A stretch of 43,264 nucleotides of DNA from Caldilineaceae bacterium (GTDB lineage: Bacteria > Chloroflexota > Anaerolineae > Caldilineales > Caldilineaceae). This document shows, piece by piece, positions 11,325 to 40,934 of the stretch; within the stretch, counting starts at the first letter, position 1, and each line of letters opens with the position of its first letter. The stretch is from assembly GCA_019637645.1 (NCBI GenBank), contig JAHBVH010000071.1, positions 1-43,264 on the forward strand, in the 5' to 3' direction. A program made the position numbers and the translations under genes. Below the pieces are notes generated by a model, which worked only from the letters and a program-made list of their open reading frames with translations, ran no database searches and had not been told where the DNA came from.

Positions 11325-11389
11325 ACGCGGATAAACGCGGCGGGACGCGGATTTAAAGCAAATCCGCGTCCCGCCGCGTTTATCCGCGT
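11325..11389. terminator. Perfect 30-base-pair hairpin between convergent genes, likely bidirectional terminator or repeat element
   Basis: The left arm 11325-11354 and right arm 11360-11389 are perfect reverse complements over 30 bases, with a 5-base loop AAAGC. The arm is built of repeated ACGCGGAT/ACGCGG blocks. It lies between two converging genes and is followed by TTCTTTT on the plus strand. A related but different hairpin lies at 35701-35759. The long arm exceeds a typical intrinsic terminator, so it is probably a repeat element that may also stop transcription. Confidence 0.75.
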
Positions 11390-12592: not shown

Positions 12593-12672
12593 CGTCCGTT
12601 ACGCTATCCGACGCTATCCGTTACGCTATCCGTTACGCTATCCGTTACGCTATCCGTTACGCTATCCGTTAC
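12593..12672. repeat. 12-base tandem repeat array (unit ACGCTATCCGTT)
   Basis: Five exact copies of ACGCTATCCGTT run from 12611 to 12670. A truncated 10-base copy lacking the final TT lies at 12601-12610, and partial unit sequence flanks the array. There are no spacers, so this is not a CRISPR array. The repeat creates spurious open frames coding for R-Y-P-L or T-L-S-V repeats. Confidence 0.95.
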
Positions 12673-12889: not shown

Positions 12890-14161
12890 ATGACTACCAG
12901 TCTCGAACAGAATGTTAACACCTATTCGCGCCCATCAGATCTCAAGATCACCGATGTACGCATTGCCAATTTGGCCGGTATCCCCATGCGCGTGAGCATT
13001 ATCCGCGTGGAAACCAACCAAGGGCTCGTCGGCTACGGCGAAGTACGCGATGGCGCAAGCAAGACCTACGCGCTGCTGCTCAAGCGTCAACTGATTGGAG
13101 AAAATCCCTGTAATATCGATAAAGTCTTCCGCAAGATCAAACAGTTTGGCTTTCATGGCCGCCAGGCCGGTGGTGTTTGTGGCGTGGAAATGGCGCTCTT
13201 TGACCTAGCCGGGAAAGCCTATGGCGTCCCCGCCTATCAATTAGCTGGCGGCAAGTTCCGTGACAAGGTGCTGTGCTATTCGGACACCCCCAGCACACCC
13301 GATGGCACTGAAATGGGTCATCGGCTCAAAGCGCGCATGGAGCAGGGCTTCAAATTCTTAAAGATGGATGTGGGGATCAACCTGCTCAAGGGGATTCCTG
13401 GCGCGCTCATTGCCCCGCCCGATATGTTGGAAAGCCGTACCGTCATGCACCAATTCACCGGCATCCAGATCACCGATGTAGGCATTGGCATTCTGTGCGA
13501 TTATGTGGCTGCCGTGCGCGATGTGATTGGCTACGAAGTGCCGCTGGCCGTGGATCACTTTGGGCATATCGGCCTCAAGTCCTGCATCCGCCTGGGCAAA
13601 GCGCTCGATAAATTCACCTTAGCCTGGTACGAAGATATGATCCCCTGGCAATTTGCCGACCAATGGGCTGAACTGACCAAAGCCGTCGATACCCCAACCT
13701 GTACGGGCGAAGACATCTATTTGAAAGAAGGCTTCCTCCCGCTGCTCCAGAAGAATGCCGTCAACATCATTCATCCCGACTTGGCTTCCTCGGGCGGGAT
13801 CATGGAAACCAAGAAGATTGGTGATCTGGCCCAAGAGTATGGGATCGCCATGGCAATGCACATGGCTGGCTCGCCCATTAGCGCGTTGGCTAATGCCCAT
13901 TGCGCCGCCGCTACCGAGAACTTCCTCGTGCTAGAAAATCACTCGGTCGATCACCCCGAGTGGAACCAATTGGTTACTGGCCTGCCGGACCCCTTGATCC
14001 AAGATGGCTTTATGAACATTCCCGATAAACCAGGCTTGGGCTTTGACGATATCAACGAGGATCTCTTCCGCGCCAATCTCGACCCCCGCGATCCGATCTA
14101 CTTTGATACACCAACCGACTTGTGGGACAAAGAATGGTCATGGGATCGGCTGTGGAGCTAA
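12890..14161 (+). CDS. Enolase-superfamily (mandelate racemase/MLE) enzyme, probable sugar-acid dehydratase
   Basis: Starting at the ATG with the GAGGAG site, the protein has 423 residues. The barrel residues are visible: KMD (158-160) at the end of the second strand, Asp222 in AVDHFGHIG, Glu248 in WYEDMIPW, Glu274 in TGEDIY and His324 in MAMHMAGSPIS. These fit the three metal ligands plus general acid/base residues of the mandelate racemase group. Such enzymes act on alpha-hydroxy acids, most often as dehydratases. An insert of about 30 residues (GIPGALIAPPDMLESRT and following) separates the second and third strands. It is in a single-gene layout, with a perfect 34-base palindrome following its stop. 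The substrate is not known. Confidence 0.88.
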   Translation: MTTSLEQNVNTYSRPSDLKITDVRIANLAGIPMRVSIIRVETNQGLVGYGEVRDGASKTYALLLKRQLIGENPCNIDKVFRKIKQFGFHGRQAGGVCGVEMALFDLAGKAYGVPAYQLAGGKFRDKVLCYSDTPSTPDGTEMGHRLKARMEQGFKFLKMDVGINLLKGIPGALIAPPDMLESRTVMHQFTGIQITDVGIGILCDYVAAVRDVIGYEVPLAVDHFGHIGLKSCIRLGKALDKFTLAWYEDMIPWQFADQWAELTKAVDTPTCTGEDIYLKEGFLPLLQKNAVNIIHPDLASSGGIMETKKIGDLAQEYGIAMAMHMAGSPISALANAHCAAATENFLVLENHSVDHPEWNQLVTGLPDPLIQDGFMNIPDKPGLGFDDINEDLFRANLDPRDPIYFDTPTDLWDKEWSWDRLWS

Positions 14162-14190
14162 GTTTGTTTTGAACTTGCCTGCCTAGGCTC

Positions 14191-14224
14191 AACCCTGTCC
14201 GGTTTTGCAAAACCGGACAGGGTT
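14191..14224. repeat. Perfect 34-base palindrome with GGTTTTGCAAAACC core
   Basis: Bases 14191-14224 read the same on both strands with no loop bases left over. The core is GGTTTTGCAAAACC and the outer arms begin AACCCTGTCC. It sits 29 bases after the stop of the enolase-superfamily gene and 60 bases before the next gene. It shares its core with elements at 40901-40934 and, imperfectly, 15463-15487. Confidence 0.95.
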
Positions 14225-14284
14225 CGCTTAGACACATCGCGATCCCGCCCACCTAGCCCCCCCATCCGTATACGCGACAAGCCC

Positions 14285-15133
14285 ATGAACGAACCCCACT
14301 TTCTCTTTGTCTATGGCACGCTCCGTCCACCCCAAGCGGATACAGCAGCAGAAGATTCCCGCTATTTTGCGGCGATTGCGGAACATGTTCGCCACCATAC
14401 CCCTGCCACCCTATCCGGAGCAGCGCTCTACAACCTCGGGGCCTATCCGGCGGCCATTCCAGGTGAGGGACTTCTTTATGGCGACTTGTTACAAGTGGAT
14501 GCCGCGGCGCTGCCGATTGCCGACCACATTGAAGGCCATCCAACCTTTTATCGCCGCCAGCAGGTGCTTGTCACCACGGCGACGGGCGTAGCGACGGCAT
14601 GGGTCTATTGGGCACCCCAGGAACTGACCAGCGGTCGCCCCCGCATCACCCAAGGCGATTGGCTACGACGGCCAGCCACGGTGACAGCGCCGCCACCGCC
14701 CGACCAAGAACGTGTAGACCCCACCTTGCGCACCTTGGTGCAACGCTTGGCCGACGAGCCCTGTGCTTGGCTGAGCAGCGTCCGCCCCGATGGTCGCGCC
14801 CACAGCGCGCCGATTTGGCATGTCTGGTATCAGGGGCGCGCCTATGTGGTGACGCCATCTCACACCGTGAAGGCCATAAACATTGGCGAAAATCCCAGTG
14901 TGGTGCTCACCCATCCGGATCCGGTTAATGCGTTGATTCTCGAAGGCTGGGCCACCCAAGCCAACGCGCTGCGCGCTGCCCTGCAACCGCGCTTTCTACA
15001 GAAATATCAGTGGGATCTCCAAAGCGCCCCTGATTATGATCTAGTGATCGCGATCACACCGACCAAGCTCCGGGCTTGGGGCTCCTACGGCGAAGGCCGT
15101 TGGCAAGGCGAAGCCGTGTTGCAAGTCTGGTAA
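14285..15133 (+). CDS. Fusion of gamma-glutamylcyclotransferase-like domain and PPOX/FMN-binding split-barrel domain
   Basis: The 282-residue frame is continuous. Residues 5-110 form a GGCT/AIG2-like domain: FVYGTLRP (8-15), the IPGEGLLYGDLL segment (58-69) and DHIEGHPTFYRR (80-91), which matches the family's D-x-x-E-x-x-P-x-Y-R pattern. A linker rich in Pro (about 133-145) leads to residues 147-280, a pyridoxamine 5'-phosphate-oxidase-like split barrel: AWLSSVRPDGRAHSAPIWHVW (161-181), KAINIGENPSVVLTH (196-210) and ALILEGWATQ (216-225). The first domain normally makes 5-oxoproline from gamma-glutamyl compounds or acts on related amines; the second binds FMN, F420 or haem. No ribosome binding site is obvious before the ATG, so the exact start is uncertain. 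The joint function is unknown. Confidence 0.8.
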   Translation: MNEPHFLFVYGTLRPPQADTAAEDSRYFAAIAEHVRHHTPATLSGAALYNLGAYPAAIPGEGLLYGDLLQVDAAALPIADHIEGHPTFYRRQQVLVTTATGVATAWVYWAPQELTSGRPRITQGDWLRRPATVTAPPPPDQERVDPTLRTLVQRLADEPCAWLSSVRPDGRAHSAPIWHVWYQGRAYVVTPSHTVKAINIGENPSVVLTHPDPVNALILEGWATQANALRAALQPRFLQKYQWDLQSAPDYDLVIAITPTKLRAWGSYGEGRWQGEAVLQVW

Positions 15134-15145
15134 ATTCCACCACAC

Positions 15146-15255
15146 CAGTGCCGGGGACGGGCCAACCATCATCCCCAAATTAGCAACCTCCTCTGGCCCG
15201 TCCCCGGCACTGCCACGGCGCGATAGCAACAGGCTCGGGCCCGTCCCCGGCACTG
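15146..15255. repeat. Triple copy of a 19-base G/C-rich element, two of them inverted
   Basis: CAGTGCCGGGGACGGGCCA at 15146-15164 is the exact reverse complement of 15194-15212, with a 29-base loop. Positions 15238-15255 repeat GGCCCGTCCCCGGCACTG in the same orientation as the right arm. The first two can form a 19-base-pair stem just after the GGCT-PPOX gene and could act as its terminator. Confidence 0.9.
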
Positions 15256-15462
15256 TGCGAACGATTTTGTGCCTCGTAGCGCCAGGAGAATCACCGATCC
15301 CCTGTTATAGCCACTTGGACAAATCCTCTTAATAGCGCGAAAATAGAACATAGACCAATTTTACTCGGCACGCAGGCATCACAGGCGAGGCGTGATACGT
15401 CTTAGCCAGTGAGGATGTTTATTGCCTTCGGCGTTACGCAATGGATCGTTGTCGCCAGAGCG

Positions 15463-15487
15463 TTGACCGGTTTGCAAAACCGGCCAA
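15463..15487. repeat. Imperfect palindrome with GGTTTGCAAAACC core
   Basis: The sequence TTGACCGG-TTTGCAAAA-CCGGCCAA is a near palindrome. It has the same T3-4 GC A4 centre as the perfect elements at 14191 and 40901, but with one T missing and a mismatch in the outer arm. It is a likely decayed member of the same repeat family. Confidence 0.75.
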
Positions 15488-15550
15488 TGCTTGTCCAGGT
15501 GCGTAAAGCCATGCCTTTTGCCGGATGAAAGTGTACGAATAATCGATTAG

Positions 15551-15560
15551 AAAGGAGGAG
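15551..15560 (+). promoter_or_regulatory. Very strong ribosome binding site of the 37-codon leader ORF
   Basis: AAAGGAGGAG, almost the full complement of the 16S rRNA tail, lies with AGGAGG eight bases before the ATG at 15567. This is the strongest such site in the window. Confidence 0.8.
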
Positions 15561-15566
15561 CGTGCA

Positions 15567-15680
15567 ATGTCGGCAGGTGCTTTGCGACCAACCTTGGCGA
15601 CGACCTTGGAGAATCCCTGTGAACAGTTCACAGGGATTCTTGTCTTTTGGGCCAGGGCAGTACACCAGGAGGTGTGTTGA
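15567..15680 (+). CDS. Candidate 37-residue leader peptide upstream of a heterodimeric ABC exporter
   Basis: An ATG at 15567 opens a 37-codon frame ending in TGA at 15678-15680, 31 bases before the first exporter gene. It begins MSAGALRPTLATTLENP and ends VHQEVC. Its ribosome binding site is near perfect. Codons 16-24 overlap a 13-base-pair hairpin followed by a T-rich stretch, so translation of this frame must affect folding of the RNA. This arrangement resembles leader peptides that control some antibiotic exporters, such as bmrB ahead of bmrCD in Bacillus subtilis. There is no homologue I recognise, so whether the peptide is made or only its translation matters is unknown. It could also be a chance frame in a repeat-rich spacer. 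Confidence 0.5.
   Translation: MSAGALRPTLATTLENPCEQFTGILVFWARAVHQEVC
15612..15648 (+). terminator. Terminator-like hairpin inside the leader ORF (candidate attenuator)
   Basis: AATCCCTGTGAAC (15612-15624) and GTTCACAGGGATT (15626-15638) are exact reverse complements about a single base; in RNA a few central bases would form the loop. The T-rich sequence CTTGTCTTTT follows at 15639-15648. A second small stem, ACACC/GGTGT at 15662-15675, encloses an AGGAGG sequence. The position between leader start and exporter start suggests transcription attenuation. The T run is imperfect, so efficiency is uncertain. Confidence 0.55.
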
Positions 15681-15711
15681 CTTTTTGAATCACTAGAATA
15701 CGAAGGATATC

Positions 15712-17466
15712 ATGCAACGCCAAGGATTACATTTTCTCTTGCCCTACATGCGCCCCTATCGAAATGCGCTGATCATCGGTACCCTTTATGCCTTAATCGG
15801 CGCCGGGGCCAGCGCGTTTAGCCCAACCCTGTTGGGGTGGGGCATTGATGATCTGACAAAGGGGATTGACCCGTTGAAGTTGGCGCTCTATTCGGTCGGC
15901 ATCATTGTGCTTGCCATAGTCGTTGCGCTGTTTCGCTATTTGTTGCGCATGCTGACGGGTGACATTGCCGCCGGCGTCTCTTATCGCATGAGCCAGGATC
16001 TCTATCATCGGCTCTTGCTCTTTGATTATGAAACCCGGCAGAAATATGGGACGGGCGATCTCCTTTCGCGAGCAACCAACGACTTTATTTACATTTGGCG
16101 CTTTTACAGTGCAGGCTTCCAAATGGCTATGCACTCGCTCTTCCTCCTCTTGATCGGCGCCTCACTCATGGCCATCACCAGCCCCGCTATGGCGGCCTTG
16201 GTGGTGGTGATGCTCGCGATTAGTATCTTTGCCCAGATGCGCTTGGGTGGCATTATCGAACAGGCTTTTGCGCGCGTTCAGGCCGAAACAGCCAAGCTCT
16301 CTGCCTTTAGCCAAGAACATCTGAATGCGGTGCGCATGTTAACCGCTTATGCCCAGGAAAAAGCCGTTGGTGAACACTTCCGCGAGGCCAATAAAGCCTA
16401 TGTTCAACAGAGCATGAGCTTTATTATCCGCTCCGGTTTGGTCTCGCCGCTGCCCAGCCTGATGGTGCGGGTGGCCGCGACGATCATTGTGCTGGTCGGT
16501 GGTCTTTTTATCATTCAGGGGCAATTAACGGTTGGTCAATATGTGCAGTTTATTGTCTACCTCAACCTGCTCAACAGTGGGGCCCAACAAATTACCGATG
16601 CTTTTGAGCGGCTCCAACAAGGAAGCGCCGCGGCAGGCCGCATTGGGGAGGTTCTCCATTTATTGCCCAAGATCAATGATGCCAGCGATGCCCAGGCCCC
16701 GGCCCTCCACGGCGAGATTCGCTTTGACCATGTCAGCGTCTATGCCGAAGATCAAGAGCGGTGGATCTTGCGTGACATCAATTTGGTGATCAAGCCTGGC
16801 TCAACGGTGGGTATTGTCGGGCCGACGGGTGCGGGCAAGAGTATGCTCATTAGCTTGCTCGGGCGGATCTATGATCCCGATGAAGGTGCAGTGCTGCTGG
16901 ATGGCTACGATCTACGCCAGATCAAGTTAGCCACGCTCCGCCGTAATGTGGTCTATGTCTTGCAGGAGACACTGCTCTTTAGTATGCCACTGCGGGGGAA
17001 TATTGCCTTGGGCGTTGCCGAAGCCTCAGACCCCCAAATCTACCGCGCCATGGAAAAAGCCCGGCTCACCAATGACCTGCCTCAACTACCCAAAGGGTTG
17101 GATAGCATTGTTGGCGAGCGGGGCGCAACGCTCTCGGGCGGCCAGAAACAGCGGACCGCGCTGGCGCGAGCGCTGGTACGTAATCCCAAGGTCTTAATTT
17201 TGGACGACGCCTTGGCTAGCGTGGATATGCACACCTCGGCACAGATTATTGAAGAGCTGCGTGAATCGGCGGGCGGCCAGGAGCGCCGGACGAGTATCAT
17301 CGTCAGCCAACGGATGGCGGCAGTGCGCCACGCGGATAAGATCGTGGTGCTGAACGAAGGGCAGATTGTCGAGGAAGGCGATCACGATACGCTGCTCGCC
17401 CAAAATGGTCTATACGCGGAAATGTACTACCGTGAGATCCAGCAAGCGGAGGAGGCGCTCGCATAA
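15712..17466 (+). CDS. ABC exporter half-transporter, degenerate-site subunit of a heterodimer (BmrC/TM287-like)
   Basis: This 584-residue protein has six membrane helices (about 18-290) and a C-terminal ATPase domain. Walker A is GPTGAGKS (370-377), the signature is a normal LSGGQ (474-478) and Walker B is VLILDD (494-499). The catalytic Glu is replaced by Asp499, and the switch His is replaced by Gln533 (VSQRM). That is the pattern of the non-catalytic nucleotide site in asymmetric heterodimeric exporters. The last base of its stop codon is the first base of the partner's ATG. GAAGGA stands four bases before the start. It probably exports drugs, lipids or peptides from the inner leaflet together with the next gene; expression may be controlled by the leader at 15567. 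Confidence 0.93.
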   Translation: MQRQGLHFLLPYMRPYRNALIIGTLYALIGAGASAFSPTLLGWGIDDLTKGIDPLKLALYSVGIIVLAIVVALFRYLLRMLTGDIAAGVSYRMSQDLYHRLLLFDYETRQKYGTGDLLSRATNDFIYIWRFYSAGFQMAMHSLFLLLIGASLMAITSPAMAALVVVMLAISIFAQMRLGGIIEQAFARVQAETAKLSAFSQEHLNAVRMLTAYAQEKAVGEHFREANKAYVQQSMSFIIRSGLVSPLPSLMVRVAATIIVLVGGLFIIQGQLTVGQYVQFIVYLNLLNSGAQQITDAFERLQQGSAAAGRIGEVLHLLPKINDASDAQAPALHGEIRFDHVSVYAEDQERWILRDINLVIKPGSTVGIVGPTGAGKSMLISLLGRIYDPDEGAVLLDGYDLRQIKLATLRRNVVYVLQETLLFSMPLRGNIALGVAEASDPQIYRAMEKARLTNDLPQLPKGLDSIVGERGATLSGGQKQRTALARALVRNPKVLILDDALASVDMHTSAQIIEELRESAGGQERRTSIIVSQRMAAVRHADKIVVLNEGQIVEEGDHDTLLAQNGLYAEMYYREIQQAEEALA

Positions 17467-19349
17467 TGACAAAGACACAAGAAGTAGACCGTAAACTGGA
17501 TCAACAGCCTGCCCCCAACGATGCAAAGCAGAATGGCAAGGCAGCCGTAGAGGAAGAAGAAGATCAGGAGGCGGCAAGAGCAGAAAATCAAGTGCTGAAC
17601 CAAGATGCGGCGCTCATCAAGCTCCTCCTTGTCTCCATTCGCCCCTACTGGCGGATGATGATGTTGGCCGGTGTTTTGATGCTCGGGGTGGCTTCGTTGA
17701 ATGTCGTTCCCCCCTACCTCCTCCAACAAGCGATCGACGGCCCCATTGCGCGCGGGGACATTAACGCGCTCTGGAACATTACGTTATTTTATGGCGCGAC
17801 CGCACTGGCGCTCTTTGTCCTGACCTTTGCCTATACCTATTTCTTGCAATATGCGGCGCAACGGGCCTTGGCCGATCTCCGCACACGCTTGTTCGACCAT
17901 ATTCTGCGCCAGGATTATACCTTTCTCACCAACACCTCGACGGGTGATCTGGTGGCACGCCTGAGCAGTGACATTGATAATATCAACCAAGTGTTGTCGA
18001 GCAGCATTGTGGTGATCTTGGTGGAAGGGGTCACCTTTATTGTCATTATCACCGTGATGTTAGTCACCAACTGGCGGTTGGCGCTGTTAGCAATGGTGCT
18101 GATGCCGGTGTTGGCGATTGTGACACGCTATTTCCGCCAACGGATTCGCCTCTCATCCACGGGGGAACGCTCGGCCATGGCGCGCATTAGCTCCTTCCTC
18201 AATGAACACCTCCATGGGATGACGGTGGTACAGCTCTTTAACCACGAGGAAGAGAGCGAACAGGAGTTTGACGACTACAACAGCCGCTATCGCCGTGCCT
18301 TGATCAATCTGCGCTATCACAGCGCGGTCTTTCTGGCTGTGCAGGAAATTCTTGCGGCGGTGGGGACTGGCTTGTTACTCTATGGTGGCGGGCGTGGCGT
18401 GTTGGCAGGCTGGGCCACGCTCGGGATGTTGGTGGCCTTTTTCCAATATTCACAGCGGGCGTTCCAACCGATTCTCAACCTATCGCAACAATATAACTCG
18501 ATTCAGATTGCCTTGGGTGCGGCAGAACGGATCTATCGGATGCTGCAAACCGAACCCAAAATTCAGAGTCCGGCCAACCCCATTCCCCTCCCGCATGTGC
18601 GTGGCGACATTGAATTTCGCAATGTACACTTTGCCTATGTGCCTGATGAACCTGTGCTGCGCGGTGTCAACCTCCACATTGCCGCGGGCCAATCGGTGGC
18701 GATTGTGGGCGCAACAGGCGCTGGGAAGTCGAGCCTCGCCAGTTTGTTGGCCCGTTACTACGATCCTTCCAAGGGGCAAGTCTTGCTGGATGGCATCGAT
18801 CTGCGGGATCTAAGCTTGAACGATCTACGCCAATCGGTGGTAGTCGTGCCGCAAGATCCCGTTTGTATTGCTGGCACCATCCGGCAGAACATCTGCCTCT
18901 ATGATGAAGATATTGGCGATGAAATCTTGTTTCAGGCTGCCGAGTTTAGCAATGCAGCGCGCTTTATCGAAAAGCTACCCGAAGGCTACGACTTTCAGCT
19001 CCTCCCGGGCGGGGCTAATCTGTCCCAAGGGCAACGGCAGCTACTGGCCTTGGCGCGGGCGCTGGCGCATAGCCCCAATGCAGTGTTGGTGTTAGACGAA
19101 GCCACCAGTAGTATCGACACAGCAACCGAAGCGCTCATTCAAGACGCGCTCGAACGGATTCTACGCTCACGTACCAGTTTGGTTATTGCCCATCGGCTTA
19201 GCACTGTACGTGGGGCGGATCGCATTATTGTCATGGAACGGGGCCGGATTATTGAGGATGGCAACCACGAAGCGTTGCTCAAGCTTAATGGCTACTATGC
19301 CCGTCTCCATCACCATCAAGTGCTGCCCAAGACAGCGCGGCCAGTGTAA
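17466..19349 (+). CDS. ABC exporter half-transporter, catalytic-site subunit of the heterodimer (BmrD/TM288-like)
   Basis: The 627-residue partner starts inside the stop codon of the upstream gene (TAATG), so the pair is translationally coupled. An acidic, Gln-rich N-terminal extension of about 48 residues precedes six membrane helices. The ATPase domain has Walker A GATGAGKS (415-422), Walker B with a normal catalytic Glu (LVLDEA, Glu545) and the switch His576 (IAHRLS). Its signature is LSQGQ (519-523) rather than LSGGQ. Combined with the first subunit, this gives one degenerate site (first subunit's Walker motifs with this LSQGQ) and one consensus site. The function is export at the cytoplasmic membrane; the substrate is not known. 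A small hairpin follows the gene. Confidence 0.93.
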   Translation: MTKTQEVDRKLDQQPAPNDAKQNGKAAVEEEEDQEAARAENQVLNQDAALIKLLLVSIRPYWRMMMLAGVLMLGVASLNVVPPYLLQQAIDGPIARGDINALWNITLFYGATALALFVLTFAYTYFLQYAAQRALADLRTRLFDHILRQDYTFLTNTSTGDLVARLSSDIDNINQVLSSSIVVILVEGVTFIVIITVMLVTNWRLALLAMVLMPVLAIVTRYFRQRIRLSSTGERSAMARISSFLNEHLHGMTVVQLFNHEEESEQEFDDYNSRYRRALINLRYHSAVFLAVQEILAAVGTGLLLYGGGRGVLAGWATLGMLVAFFQYSQRAFQPILNLSQQYNSIQIALGAAERIYRMLQTEPKIQSPANPIPLPHVRGDIEFRNVHFAYVPDEPVLRGVNLHIAAGQSVAIVGATGAGKSSLASLLARYYDPSKGQVLLDGIDLRDLSLNDLRQSVVVVPQDPVCIAGTIRQNICLYDEDIGDEILFQAAEFSNAARFIEKLPEGYDFQLLPGGANLSQGQRQLLALARALAHSPNAVLVLDEATSSIDTATEALIQDALERILRSRTSLVIAHRLSTVRGADRIIVMERGRIIEDGNHEALLKLNGYYARLHHHQVLPKTARPV

Positions 19350-19354
19350 GACCA

Positions 19355-19392
19355 GGTTGCATAGATAGCTCCTGCGGGTTGTCTATGCAACC
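19355..19392. terminator. Hairpin between convergent genes
   Basis: GGTTGCATAGA (19355-19365) and TCTATGCAACC (19382-19392) form an 11-base-pair stem with a 16-base loop. It sits between the end of the exporter operon and the end of the converging hydrolase gene. No T run follows on either strand, so termination is only suggested by position. Confidence 0.55.
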
Positions 19393-19407
19393 TCTCGCCC
19401 CGTGCCG

Positions 19408-20931
19408 CTAGGGCAGTTGGGCCTGAATCCACGCGATCATATCTTGGATCGGCTCCTCGGCCATCTCGTAGAACGAATCTTCGGCCATGCGCTCCGTCGG
19501 GCTGAGCGCGTGGCCGAGGGTAGGATAGCGCAGCAAGGTCACTCGGTCTGGCGCAGCCCCCGCAATGGCGATGGCCGCCTCCACCGGAATCCAACCATCG
19601 CGATCCCCATGTAACACCAAAATCGGCATGGCGAGCGCTGGCACCAGTTCGGCAATCGTACGCGAGGGCGACATCCCAGCATAGATCCGTGCCACAAGGG
19701 GGATCAATCCTTCCACAAAGGGACGTAGTTCGGTCTGAATATCGACTAGCCCATCATTATCCAGATCTAAATTGGGTTGCAAGGGCAACAAAGCGGCCAA
19801 AAACGACGTACGCGTTGAAAAGAGCCCGAGGAACCAGACCGGCCCGGCGGGGATCGCGGCCACTTCCGCCGGGCTCAACTTGCCATCGCCATCTTGGTCG
19901 ATCACCTCTTCCAAATAGGGCAACCCAATGTTCAAATGTTGATAGACCAAGGCTTCTTCAAGGCGCAAGTTGAGTGGGGCTTGCAAGAGCAAGCCAGCGA
20001 CTTCCGGATGAGCATACGCCGTATAGGTCGCGACGATCCCACCTTCACTCCAGCCATAGAGAAAAATCTGGTTGTCATCCACTTCTGGCTGGGCTTTCGC
20101 CGTGGTCATCACCGCCTCGGCATCGATGATGCGCTGATTGACGAAGGTCTGTTGGAGTTGCTCATAGTCATACTCGCCATGGGCCAACACCCCGCGTTTA
20201 TTAAAGCGCAGAACGGCAATGCCCGCTTCGCCAAAAGCCTCGGCAATCTTCTGAAAATTGGTTGAGGAGGCTTGACCCACCCCAGCGCTATACGAAGCAT
20301 CCATATCGGCGGGACCGGTGCCACTGAACAAAATTACCGTAGGCCAAGGGCCAGCCCCGGTGGGGGGAAAGGTCAATTGGCCTTTGCTGCCAAAATGGTC
20401 GGTCAAGTGGATGATCAGATTACGGTAGCGCACCCCGTTCGCAAATTCGCCATCGACCCCAAAGGGCACGGTTGTGGATTCACCCCCGGCAAACTGCGGC
20501 CCCAATACACTGTTCAAATAGTCCAGAGTGACTAGATTATCACCCACATAGAGTACGATCAATTGTGCCTGTTGAAAAAAATGGGGCGTATCGACCCAAT
20601 CAACCGTCAGCGCTTCCGCCGCCCCAGCCTGAGGGGTAAAGCTAAAGCCATCAAGCGCAACCCCAGCAGCCTCGGCTTGGGCAGCAGCCGCATCAGGATA
20701 GGCGTAGATCTGGAGTTCGTCGCCGTTGACTTGGAGGAGTTGACGGGGCACAGTCAGAGGAAAGGCAGGCACTTCACTGACCTCGCTGCCTAGTTGGACA
20801 CTGGCACCCATAGCCCGTAGTGCGGTCATTAGATGATCAATCGACGGCTCACCGCTCAGGGGTGTACAGCCGACAAGCAAAATTCCCAACAACAGTACCC
20901 ATAACCCGCGTCGTTGTTGCATAGCCTTCAC
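19408..20931 (-). CDS. Alpha/beta-hydrolase lipoprotein with two EF-hand-like calcium loops
   Basis: The 507-residue precursor has a lipobox LLVGC with Cys22, so it is probably anchored outside the membrane. Residues 30-150 form a small domain with MGASVQLGSEVS and LQVNGDELQIYAYPDAAAAQAEA, a module also found alone in bacterial lipoproteins. The hydrolase domain (about 170-505) has the nucleophile in GWSEGG (Ser295), Asp443 in LHGDRDGW and His474 in LGHALS. Between Ser and Asp lies a cap with two 12-residue EF-hand loops: DQDGDGKLSPAE (345-356) and DLDNDGLVDIQT (389-400). The start codon is GTG; an ATG three codons later is also possible. It may be a secreted esterase or peptidase stabilised by Ca2+; the substrate is unknown. 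Confidence 0.87.
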   Translation of the reverse strand: MKAMQQRRGLWVLLLGILLVGCTPLSGEPSIDHLMTALRAMGASVQLGSEVSEVPAFPLTVPRQLLQVNGDELQIYAYPDAAAAQAEAAGVALDGFSFTPQAGAAEALTVDWVDTPHFFQQAQLIVLYVGDNLVTLDYLNSVLGPQFAGGESTTVPFGVDGEFANGVRYRNLIIHLTDHFGSKGQLTFPPTGAGPWPTVILFSGTGPADMDASYSAGVGQASSTNFQKIAEAFGEAGIAVLRFNKRGVLAHGEYDYEQLQQTFVNQRIIDAEAVMTTAKAQPEVDDNQIFLYGWSEGGIVATYTAYAHPEVAGLLLQAPLNLRLEEALVYQHLNIGLPYLEEVIDQDGDGKLSPAEVAAIPAGPVWFLGLFSTRTSFLAALLPLQPNLDLDNDGLVDIQTELRPFVEGLIPLVARIYAGMSPSRTIAELVPALAMPILVLHGDRDGWIPVEAAIAIAGAAPDRVTLLRYPTLGHALSPTERMAEDSFYEMAEEPIQDMIAWIQAQLP

Positions 20932-22177: not shown

Positions 22178-24676
22178 TTATGGCGGAGTCGGATCATGCC
22201 AATAACTGACGAGTTGCCCACTAGCATTATACAACGCCCCATCGTCTTTCTCTTCATTGTTCCAAACAGAGCCTGCACCCATGTGGGGAAAGCTCAGGGT
22301 ACTACCGGGAAGAATGATACCCAAAATTCCATCATGTTCCTGATTCCCTCTAATACTACAAAGATGCCATCCCCCCAAATTAATACTTTCATTACTTGTA
22401 TTCTGCAAATGTACAATTTCAGTATCTTTTTCGATCTGCAGAATCCGAATCGGAAGGTCTTGTGCTAAGGTTGGATCAGGATCTTCCTGACAACCATCAA
22501 AACTCGGTACCGGTAAGTCTGGAGCAGGTGTAGCCAAAGCAACAGTGGGCGAAACCGTTGGTGCAATTGTGGGTACAACAATCGTGGGGATTACAATGGT
22601 CGGAATTATCGTGGGCGTTCCCGGTGTCGGCCCTGGCGTTCCCCCCACACAGCTGAGAAGCTCGACATTGTCCAGATAGGCCCAGGTGGTGGCGCCATTG
22701 CCATTGTTGAAGACATTGAAATAGAGCGAGACGGTCTGCCCACGGTAGGCGGTCAGATCGGCGGTAGCCAGTTGCCAGTTGCCGTCATTACGGCGGACCC
22801 GTTGCAACACCGCCAATACCCGATCATCAGGGGCAAGGAGGAGCACCTCTTGGCGATCGCTCGAGGTGCCTGGATCCCCTGGAACGGCTTCGCTACTGCC
22901 ATAGAGATGCCTCCACTGGAGCGTCACACTCGTGGCATCGGCGGGGATGACAATGGGCTGGCGCACCGACGAATAGCTGGCGCGGTCGGCCCAGCCTGCC
23001 GCGGGAGGATTCCCCACTTGCATGGCCCGTGCGCCGCCATCGTGTTGGCTTGTTGTATATTGGGGGGGCAAGGCCGATTTGCCCAGAATCCAACTGCCCT
23101 CCCCTTCAAAATCGCCATTGGCTAACAGATTGGGGCAGCTACTTACACCGGTGGCAGTCGGGGTGGGTACCGGCGGGGTGGGGGTAGTGGGCGTTTGGGT
23201 CGGCACGACGGTGGCCGCGGGTGTTGTCGGCGCAATGGTTGGAATGACGGTAACCCCAGTAGGCACAGGTGTGGCAACCGTCGGCACAGGCGTGCTACCA
23301 GCACAGGTGTCGAGCTGCACCTCGTCAATGTAGGCCCAAGTGGCGGCACCATTGCCATCGTTAAAGACATTGAAATAGAGATAGACCGTCTGGCCGCGGT
23401 AGGGTGTCAGGTCGATGCTCTCTGCTTGCCAGCCGCTATCGTTACGCCGCACGCGCTGAAGCACGGTTAGCACCTTTTCATCCATGCGCAGCAGGAGTAC
23501 CTCTTGGCGGTCATGGTTGGTGCCGGGATCGCCAGTAATGCTCTCGGCGCTGCCATACCAATGCCGCCAGCGTAACGTTACCACATTGGCATTGGCGGGA
23601 ATCGTCACAGCTTGGCGGATCGAGGAGTAGCTGGGCTGCGCAAGAACGCCTGTATCGGGTGGGTGGCCCAGTTGCATGGCCCAATTCCCGCCATATTTTT
23701 GCACGTTAGTATACTGAGGCGGTTTCGCCGAAGCACCAATGAGCCAGCTGCCACTGCCTTCAAAGTCACCATTGCCCAGCAAATTGGCGCAGAGAGCTGG
23801 TGGCGTGGGCAAGGGTGTTGGCGGCCAGGACGTGGGTGGCAAAGGCGTCCAACCACTAGTCACGGTCGGCAGCACCACCGGTGCTGTCGGCCAAGGGGTT
23901 GGCCCAATGACAATCGGGGTCGGCGTGACATTGGGGGCCAAGGTTGGGATCAAGGTCATGGTCAAAGGCAAGGTTGGCAGCGCGGGCAGGTCACCGGGGT
24001 CTAGGGTAGCCGTCGGCCAAGGTGGATCCGTGGGCAACGGGGGCAAATTGGGGGGAGGCAAAACATCCGTCATGCTTCCCGTCGCCGTGGCAACCGCATA
24101 GGCGCTGGTATAGAGCGCCAAATTCATGTTCGCCACATCATTCGTTTCGCCAGCGGCAATATCGACATTGGTCACGACAAAGCCGCTGATCAGGGTCTCG
24201 CGGATCCGCGCTAAAAAGTTAACTAAGCGCGGAAACGAGCCAGTCACCCGTAGGCCAAAGGTGCGCTGCCGATAGAGATTGTTACTAGTGGGCTGCGGTG
24301 CGGCTTGCGCCTGTAGCTCGGCAATGGTCACGCCACTTTCTTGGGCATATTGATAGAGACGTTCCAAAGCCGCGGCGGCCTGCGTTTCGCTGAGAAAGGC
24401 GCTTGCCGCGCTGTCCACCCGAGCTTGTGCTGCCGTCACTTGGGCGCGTACGGTGGCTGGCACAGCCGCCTGGGCGGTGGCAGCTTCGGCAGCGTTTTGC
24501 TCCATCGTCGCCACCACCTCGATCAAGTCGCTACGGGTTTGCACGCTTGGGATGATGCGCAACAGGAGATACAAAAAAATACCAAGCGCAAGCAGCAAAA
24601 TGCCCCCGATTGCAAGGAGGAGCGAGAGCCGTTCCTTCGTAGGCAGATAGGCGCGCCAATTGCGTAGGATGTTCAC
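22178..24676 (-). CDS. PilO-like membrane protein fused to two beta-sandwich domains and a lamin-tail-like domain
   Basis: The 832 residues start with a membrane helix (about 18-40), then a coiled-coil and ferredoxin-like PilO region (about 45-195, including LRVTGSFPRLVNFLARIRE). A Pro/Thr linker leads to two copies of a 160-residue module (297-457 and 514-676) that share NLLxNGDFEG, WRHxYGS, TAYRGQTV-type and YFNVFN segments; they look like carbohydrate-binding or MAM-like beta-sandwiches. A second linker precedes a C-terminal lamin-tail-like domain (about 742-828) with IVHLQNTSNESINLGGWHL. The start is GTG and overlaps the PilN-like stop by four bases (GTGA), so the two are coupled. It is probably an extracytoplasmic, surface-exposed protein on a PilO scaffold. 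Normal PilO proteins are near 200 residues. Confidence 0.8.
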   Translation of the reverse strand: MNILRNWRAYLPTKERLSLLLAIGGILLLALGIFLYLLLRIIPSVQTRSDLIEVVATMEQNAAEAATAQAAVPATVRAQVTAAQARVDSAASAFLSETQAAAALERLYQYAQESGVTIAELQAQAAPQPTSNNLYRQRTFGLRVTGSFPRLVNFLARIRETLISGFVVTNVDIAAGETNDVANMNLALYTSAYAVATATGSMTDVLPPPNLPPLPTDPPWPTATLDPGDLPALPTLPLTMTLIPTLAPNVTPTPIVIGPTPWPTAPVVLPTVTSGWTPLPPTSWPPTPLPTPPALCANLLGNGDFEGSGSWLIGASAKPPQYTNVQKYGGNWAMQLGHPPDTGVLAQPSYSSIRQAVTIPANANVVTLRWRHWYGSAESITGDPGTNHDRQEVLLLRMDEKVLTVLQRVRRNDSGWQAESIDLTPYRGQTVYLYFNVFNDGNGAATWAYIDEVQLDTCAGSTPVPTVATPVPTGVTVIPTIAPTTPAATVVPTQTPTTPTPPVPTPTATGVSSCPNLLANGDFEGEGSWILGKSALPPQYTTSQHDGGARAMQVGNPPAAGWADRASYSSVRQPIVIPADATSVTLQWRHLYGSSEAVPGDPGTSSDRQEVLLLAPDDRVLAVLQRVRRNDGNWQLATADLTAYRGQTVSLYFNVFNNGNGATTWAYLDNVELLSCVGGTPGPTPGTPTIIPTIVIPTIVVPTIAPTVSPTVALATPAPDLPVPSFDGCQEDPDPTLAQDLPIRILQIEKDTEIVHLQNTSNESINLGGWHLCSIRGNQEHDGILGIILPGSTLSFPHMGAGSVWNNEEKDDGALYNASGQLVSYWHDPTPP

Positions 24677-29878: not shown

Positions 29879-29904
29879 ACCTAGTGATTCCTTATCCATT
29901 AGGA

Positions 29905-29981
29905 CTTTGTCATTGGTCCTTTGTCATTGGTCCTTTGTCATTGGTCATTGGTCCTTTGTCATTGGTCCTTTGTCATTGGTT
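29905..29981. repeat. 14-base tandem repeat (unit CTTTGTCATTGGTC)
   Basis: Exact units lie at 29905-29918, 29919-29932, 29933-29946 and 29954-29967, with a half unit ATTGGTC between the third and fourth. A fifth with one change in its last base lies at 29968-29981. It fills the spacer between the permease stop and the adaptor start on the minus strand, so copy-number changes could alter spacing. Confidence 0.93.
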
Positions 29982-30054
29982 ATTAGCCATTGATTATTGA
30001 TTATTCATTAGATCCTTTATCATTGATCTCTCGGCTGCGCCCCGCTGTCTTCGG

Positions 30055-35700: not shown

Positions 35701-35759
35701 GAGGACGCGGATTGACGCGGAGCCACGCGGATAAAATATCCGCGTGGCTCCGCGTCCTC
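35701..35759. terminator. Long hairpin of the CGCGGAT repeat type between two minus-strand genes
   Basis: ACGCGGAGCCACGCGGATA (35715-35733) pairs perfectly with 35737-35755 over 19 bases around an AAA loop. The bases 35701-35710 can pair further if a 10-base block (ATTGACGCGG) is looped out, since that block is a near copy of its neighbour. It lies after the stop of the deacetylase gene (minus strand). It uses the same ACGCGGAT/ACGCGG vocabulary as the hairpin at 11325. Confidence 0.8.
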
Positions 35760-40900: not shown

Positions 40901-40934
40901 AGACCTGACAGGTTTTGCAAAACCTGTCAGGTCT
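40901..40934. repeat. Perfect 34-base palindrome with GGTTTTGCAAAACC core
   Basis: Bases 40901-40934 are a perfect palindrome beginning AGACCTGACA. It has the same length and the same 14-base core as the element at 14191-14224, but different outer arms (AGACCTGACA against AACCCTGTCC). Since both arms of each differ together, base pairing is retained. Confidence 0.95.

Follow-up and report, generated by a model that had tools for sequence, protein, structure and literature searches.

A predicted terminator hairpin and a short open reading frame in the leader of a two-subunit ABC exporter from a Caldilineaceae bacterium

We analysed a 43,264-nt stretch of DNA from a Caldilineaceae bacterium (contig JAHBVH010000071.1; hereafter the window), which encodes two half-size ABC transporters in succession on the forward strand. 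The gene of subunit A (584 aa; 15712–17466, +) and the gene of subunit B (627 aa; 17466–19349, +) overlap by 1 nt, and both proteins contain the ABC_membrane and ABC_tran domains. Subunit A is TmrB/BmrC-like and reads LILDDALASVD at the Walker B site; subunit B is TmrA/TM288/BmrD-like and reads LVLDEATSSID. A difference of LDD and LDE between subunits is the usual mark of an asymmetric ABC pair, the D of subunit A presumably denoting the degenerate site. Among half-size proteins of solved structure, 5mkk_B is nearest to subunit A (316 bits), followed by Bacillus subtilis YheI (292 bits), and 5mkk_A is nearest to subunit B, followed by TM_0288 and YheH; we take 5mkk_B to be TmrB of Thermus and TmrAB to be the name of the 5mkk chains. 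Two adjacent half-transporters, one of them with a non-glutamate residue at the catalytic position, correspond to heterodimeric exporters of the TmrAB/BmrCD kind. Subunits A and B would pair with each other, and their kinship suggests the label of a drug-type exporter. No NCBIfam model reached its cut-off among the best 25 models listed for subunit A or for subunit B.

Upstream of the pair lies a candidate leader ORF of 37 codons (15567–15680, +; 114 nt) with the predicted peptide MSAGALRPTLATTLENPCEQFTGILVFWARAVHQEVC. Its stop codon (TGA, 15678–15680) is separated from the exporter ATG (15712) by 31 nt, and both the frame and this gap are as the initial annotation had placed them. A Shine–Dalgarno sequence AAGGAGG can be read at 15552–15558 (+), with AGGAGG (15553–15558) 8 nt ahead of the ATG of the frame, and AAGGA stands before the exporter ATG. 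A 44-codon frame in another phase begins with GTG at 15562, 3 nt behind the same Shine–Dalgarno sequence. The length of the 37-codon frame is no evidence in itself, because 22% of ATGs would open a frame of at least 37 codons by chance alone. The ribosome binding site is somewhat more notable: a scan of both strands of the window for AAGGAGG at a spacing of 3–11 before frames of at least 15 codons returned two sites only, that of the leader frame and one at 22850, which is antisense within a gene. Shine–Dalgarno sequence, ATG and 37 codons together make up a short ORF of predicted translatability that overlaps a terminator-like hairpin.

This hairpin 1 (15610–15640, +) comprises 14 perfect Watson–Crick pairs and a loop of 3 (CAG), with dG −20.9, or 15 pairs if G15609–T15641 is counted. 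It is followed by the tail TTGTCTTTTGGG (15640–15651, +), in which 15640–15648 is the T-rich part where premature 3′ ends are predicted; the tail is interrupted by G and C, and the opposite strand of the hairpin carries no T tail. A hairpin with a T-rich tail had been annotated here as 13 bp long and at codons 16–27; hairpin and tail stand, while the size and the position are corrected to 14 bp and codons 15–25 of the 37-codon frame. The annotated second stem enclosing AGGAGG is found as hairpin 2 (15658–15679, +), with 9 pairs, the loop AGGA, then ACTTTTTG, and dG −9.3. AGGAGG is contained in its loop and right arm, and the right arm also holds the beginning of the TGA of the 37-codon frame. 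Hairpin 2 scores as terminator-like as well, more weakly than hairpin 1.

The hairpin-plus-T score of the leader (−145 to −31) was equalled in none of 150 dinucleotide shuffles (p = 0.007), and the fold of 15500–15760 was only mildly unusual (z −2.0, with 11 of 200 shuffles equally good). A simple consensus scan of 14000–20000 counted 7 terminator-like sites versus 6.1 in shuffles; the number of sites around the leader is therefore not unusual, and it is the strength of hairpin 1 that is. Hairpin 1 is present as a single copy within the window. Strong palindromes in themselves are no rarity there, since the window holds four further perfect palindromes with arms of at least 14. Rfam gave no match to the window at gathering score; three weak matches that merely resemble hairpins had E values of 0.24 at best. 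The stem of hairpin 1 was found in none of the 46 family genomes described below, a result that is uninformative on the window's own genome because the core of a palindrome present twice in the window (at 14191 and 40901) was likewise found in none of the 46.

Several other repeats were recorded. Perfect palindromes with arms of 15–30 bp, apparently intergenic, are located at 11325–11389, 14191–14224, 35714–35756 and 40901–40934; those at 14191 and 40901 are both centred on GGTTTTGCAAAACC, and about 15466–15484 there is a related near-palindrome. Three copies of GTGCCGGGGACGGGCC or a close variant, in both orientations, occur at 15145–15255, in the interval that separates the exporter leader from the gene upstream. 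Short tandem repeats occur at 12611–12672 (12-nt units, ACGCTATCCGTT) and at 29883–30008 (14-nt units, CCTTTGTCATTGGT).

A promoter scan, with weights set by hand with the exporter leaders of the window and its relatives in view, gave no convincing promoter in the window. TTGACC-17-AATGCT (15463–15491, +), the best promoter-like site ahead of the leader, is weak, with a score of 9.1 versus 11.1–15.0 in six terminator-bearing relatives. An alternative site, TTTGCC-15-AATAAT (15517–15543, +; score 5.5), also weak, is situated directly before the ribosome binding site and appears to resemble, by position, the TTTTGC-TATACT boxes of relatives.

Starting from the MAG RI_153 (L001), we reached a family of 46 genomes; subunit A is encoded at 67–72% identity in 14 of them, L001 being one of these. 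The subunit B gene follows in all 14 relatives at 66–72% identity, that of L028 ending at the contig edge; L002 matches subunit A with 68% identity across the first 150 residues. Samples of the class (249 and 396 genomes) and of the phylum (400 genomes), which cover these groups in part, contained no nearer relatives than the 14. The window and the 14 relatives form one supported clade of the subunit A tree, the inner order near the window not being fixed by it. We read the final 400–420 nt upstream of the exporter in all 14 relatives.

At a terminator score of at least 29.5, we counted 6 of 15 exporter leaders (window, L026, L027, L028, L029 and L030) versus 5 of 78 other gene starts (Fisher p = 0.0019), the controls being starts in the same sequences with upstream space of at least 150 nt, set as the longest ORF by codon usage, and the exporter starts being set by alignment, so that treatment was not identical. 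Placing the exporter starts by the control procedure changed the scores of L027 (0), L033 (26.1) and L034 (25.4). Merging the near-copies L028 and L030 left 5 of 14 leaders at this level (p = 0.0065), and one of the five controls is the exporter leader of L033 on the other strand, without which p = 0.0038. At a score of at least 25, the counts were 8 of 15 and 11 of 78 (p = 0.0020). The 15 rows leave out L002, L024 and L039–L044: L002 (G002, partial exporter) has no terminator and a score of 0, which would make the count 6 of 16; L024 (G633) is a partial exporter match; and the distant loci L039–L044 gave 0 of 6 at 29.5 or above, with L043 at 30.7 from the control-procedure start. Single-row p values of the relatives were 0.007–0.046, uncorrected for the 22 rows tested. 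The excess of leader terminators at orthologous exporters over other gene starts makes the terminator look like a recurrent attenuator, and the annotated leader terminator ahead of a two-subunit asymmetric ABC exporter is borne out as a predicted hairpin with T tail that recurs at part of the orthologous exporters.

A clear promoter, then a terminator-like hairpin and then the exporter are arranged in this order in 6 of the 14 relatives (L025–L030). The −10 box is TATACT, except for TATGAT in L026, with a −35 box 17 or 18 nt upstream, and its end is 18 (L025), 41 (L026), 82 (L027), 89 (L028), 159 (L029) and 89 nt (L030) away from the hairpin. All six hairpins fall within the interval from 128 to 54 nt ahead of the exporter ATG. 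Because they lie between the −10 box and the exporter ATG, they are inside the exporter's own predicted leader. L025 (score 26.1), whose stem is short and whose tail is T6, counts as another terminator case by eye; its hairpin is not the terminator of the upstream gene, since the next gene upstream is divergent. The leaders of L025, L027–L030 and L032–L037 have a recurring TTGCNN-N17-TATACT/TACAAT promoter, and several of these promoters, read by eye, have GATCTTTTGC or ACCGGTTTAG at the promoter itself or ahead of it, possibly a regulator site.

In 8 of the 14 relatives, a terminator between promoter and exporter is missing. The clade L032/L034–L037 (five genomes) and L038 have none in this interval, the hairpins of L031 (25.4) and L034 (24.5) are upstream of the promoter, and the hairpin of L033 has a poor exporter-ward T tail (1.44) and a better tail on the other strand (2.17). 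As rows were called by the exporter-ward tail, the strand bias of T tails is partly due to selection. The hairpins of L033 and L026 have the same CGCCCAGTT stem, and the pattern CGCCCAGTT..AAYTGGGCG occurs in one place each in G172 and G278, both in the exporter leader; among the remaining 44 genomes it was found at 5 places, spread over 5 genomes. Terminator-bearing rows are distributed over several branches of the exporter tree, the window's own among them. The presence of the terminator requires 4 changes on the tree, and well-supported branches force at least 3 of these. That the leader terminators go back to one origin is neither shown nor needed.

We propose that the exporter mRNA has its 5′ leader at 15.55–15.71 kb, in which hairpin 1, perhaps assisted by hairpin 2, would act as an intrinsic terminator and stop many transcripts ahead of the exporter genes. 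The exporter would be expressed once something prevents hairpin 1 from folding, and in this species the likeliest candidate would be a ribosome on the 37-codon frame, which crosses hairpin 1 into hairpin 2. With an assumed ribosome footprint of −15 to +17, a P site at codons 14–20 would place the footprint over the whole left arm, a P site at codon 12 over 8 of its 14 nt, and a P site at codons 1–8 over none of it. The geometry of the annotated ribosome near codons 11–16 that masks the left arm is thus retained, its range being shifted slightly later. Predicted folds follow the same pattern: blocking 15594–15624 abolished hairpin 1, blocking only 15585–15615 left an inner 8-bp hairpin, and blocking 15551–15594 left hairpin 1 intact.

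Minimum-free-energy folds revealed no competing antiterminator, that is, no stable helix that would claim either arm before hairpin 1 has formed, and a ribosome held at about codons 14–20 should therefore lead to read-through; direct occlusion by the ribosome needs no antiterminator. A ribosome held before codon 10, or failed initiation, would result in termination. A closely coupled ribosome that moves at its normal pace would cover the arms as well, and one halted on the start codon would leave them free to pair. With no antiterminator in the folds, the sequence does not tell whether a given drug would raise or lower read-through. We infer that the hairpins would terminate, that the ribosome would relieve them, and that the leader may sense translation-blocking drugs or the general translation state. 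A trp-like switch was considered and rejected: minimum-free-energy folds of nascent stretches and of footprint-blocked RNA contained no stable alternative helix that captures one arm of hairpin 1 before the other arm has been made, and the helix CCTTGGC (about 15592)/GCCAGGG (about 15651) forms only once the T tract has been passed.

An attenuator that is relieved by a ribosome on the 37-codon frame is, tentatively, the best explanation for this arrangement. The same hairpin could attenuate in a leader where the frame is accidental, read-through being a constant low level or being set by RNA polymerase pausing, a protein or an unrecognised RNA switch; this is possible, and we would not put it first. 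The leader frames of the relatives bear on this point. The initial annotation had named absence of the frame from relatives as grounds for rejecting its proposal, and, taken literally, this is what was seen, so that the leader-peptide part is not supported so far: nothing like the 37-codon frame could be recognised in 21 loci of relatives, where tblastn gave no match better than E 0.95. A fast-evolving leader could escape view, because the exporter of even the nearest relative is only 72% identical. L025 cannot fit a leader ORF into the 18 nt from −10 box to hairpin and nonetheless has a hairpin and T6 tail; its listed Shine–Dalgarno-led frames begin upstream of the −10 box. The frames through the hairpin in L028 and L030 lack a Shine–Dalgarno match, and L026 has only a 10-codon TTG frame that starts within the hairpin, so that none of L025, L026, L028 and L030 has a Shine–Dalgarno-led frame starting inside the predicted transcript and reaching or crossing the hairpin. 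The 44-aa frame of L030 had no homologue candidate in a large protein collection, and L027 has a 9-codon frame with GGAG. The chance expectation for frame length likewise favours this second reading, as does the rise in patAB expression caused by terminator mutations, described in the available part of the source (PMC4319486). Against it stand the rarity in the window of AAGGAGG at good spacing before a start, and L029, where a 37-codon frame with AAGGA begins just after the promoter and ends 18 nt before the hairpin. L029 is the only one among the other terminator leaders with a comparable Shine–Dalgarno-led frame; we take its equal length of 37 codons to be a coincidence, and matches to this frame elsewhere, from E = 0.014, fall outside exporter leaders. 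In L032 (at 9908) and L035 (at 5784), which have no leader terminator, an AGGAG-led ATG lies in frame with the exporter 93 nt upstream (MTADGEPQP...), and the exporter protein of these two may therefore be longer, with an N-terminal extension. Taken together, the two attenuator readings make it likely that the leader terminator attenuates the exporter; control by translation of the 37-codon frame, considered separately, falls somewhat short of an even chance.

It is unlikely that the hairpin is instead the 3′ terminator of the upstream gene (14285–15133, GGACT/PNPOx protein) or of an independent small RNA, its adjacency to the exporter being positional only. In favour of this, the upstream gene points the same way as the exporter, intergenic palindromes are common in the window, and control starts with scores of at least 22 are found both behind codirectional (9 of 40) and behind divergent (7 of 38) genes. 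However, the hairpin begins 476 nt past the upstream gene, beyond other inverted-repeat sequences (15145–15255), the same arrangement is seen in L025 with its divergent upstream gene, and the hairpin is behind its own promoter in six relatives. It is improbable that the palindrome is a product of chance or a repeat and regulates nothing, or that it is a stem which stabilises the exporter mRNA at its 5′ end: four more perfect palindromes in 43 kb, the imperfect T tail and the 8 of 14 relatives that do without a terminator would fit it, but hairpin 1 is single-copy in the window, its T tail is on the exporter-ward strand, and terminators are enriched at orthologous exporter leaders.

An attenuator with the ribosome as relief has its closest parallel in bmrB–bmrCD of Bacillus subtilis, the precedent given in the initial annotation. 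Both loci have a terminator-like hairpin within a small ORF directly ahead of a two-gene ABC exporter, as far as bmrB is described in the available part of the source (PMC4191407), and subunits A and B of the window resemble YheI (BmrC) and YheH (BmrD), although the closest half-size solved protein to subunit A is 5mkk_B, ahead of YheI of the bmrCD system. According to the same excerpt, bmrB measures 162 nt, versus 114 nt for the window frame, and has a predicted antiterminator and anti-antiterminator (PMC4191407), whereas no antiterminator was found in the window. The bmrB terminator was tested with lincomycin, as stated in this excerpt (PMC4191407), whereas that of the window is predicted from sequence. 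By analogy, a bmrB-like control by the ribosome is possible in the window.

In the patAB system of Streptococcus pneumoniae, too, the leader of an ABC exporter operon contains an intrinsic terminator, and mutations map 33–47 nt before the start codon (excerpt of PMC4319486). It differs in that reporters showed terminator function, that an antiterminator and an anti-antiterminator were predicted, and that a leader ORF is not mentioned in the available part of that paper (PMC4319486). In a survey of attenuated genes, ABC transporters had the highest absolute number (205) of predicted cases by family; its ABC-leaders are premature terminators seen repeatedly, by synteny, ahead of ABC transporter genes; their leader sequences differ, and sensing parts are exchanged in some families, as presented in the available part of the source (PMC2965389). 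The main text of this survey contains no word starting with "chloroflex" (PMC2965389), and a search of titles and abstract starts for attenuators in Chloroflexota gave no title among the matches listed, which is weak evidence of absence. The window leader would be a further case of a known kind, a leader terminator before an ABC exporter.

It is doubtful at present whether, in this probably Chloroflexota family, the exporter's terminator has held its position, by retention or renewed gain, as its stem sequence and its sensing part turned over. Such turnover would account for the differences between leaders: in the window a frame, supposedly read by ribosomes, crosses the hairpin, L029 has its frame ahead of the hairpin, L025 has hardly any leader, and other clades lack the terminator. 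If the proposed attenuation is correct, it would extend the attenuation of drug-type two-subunit exporters beyond the cited cases from Firmicutes to a little-studied, mostly uncultured group, in which the same exporter family would supply natural variants with and without the terminator.
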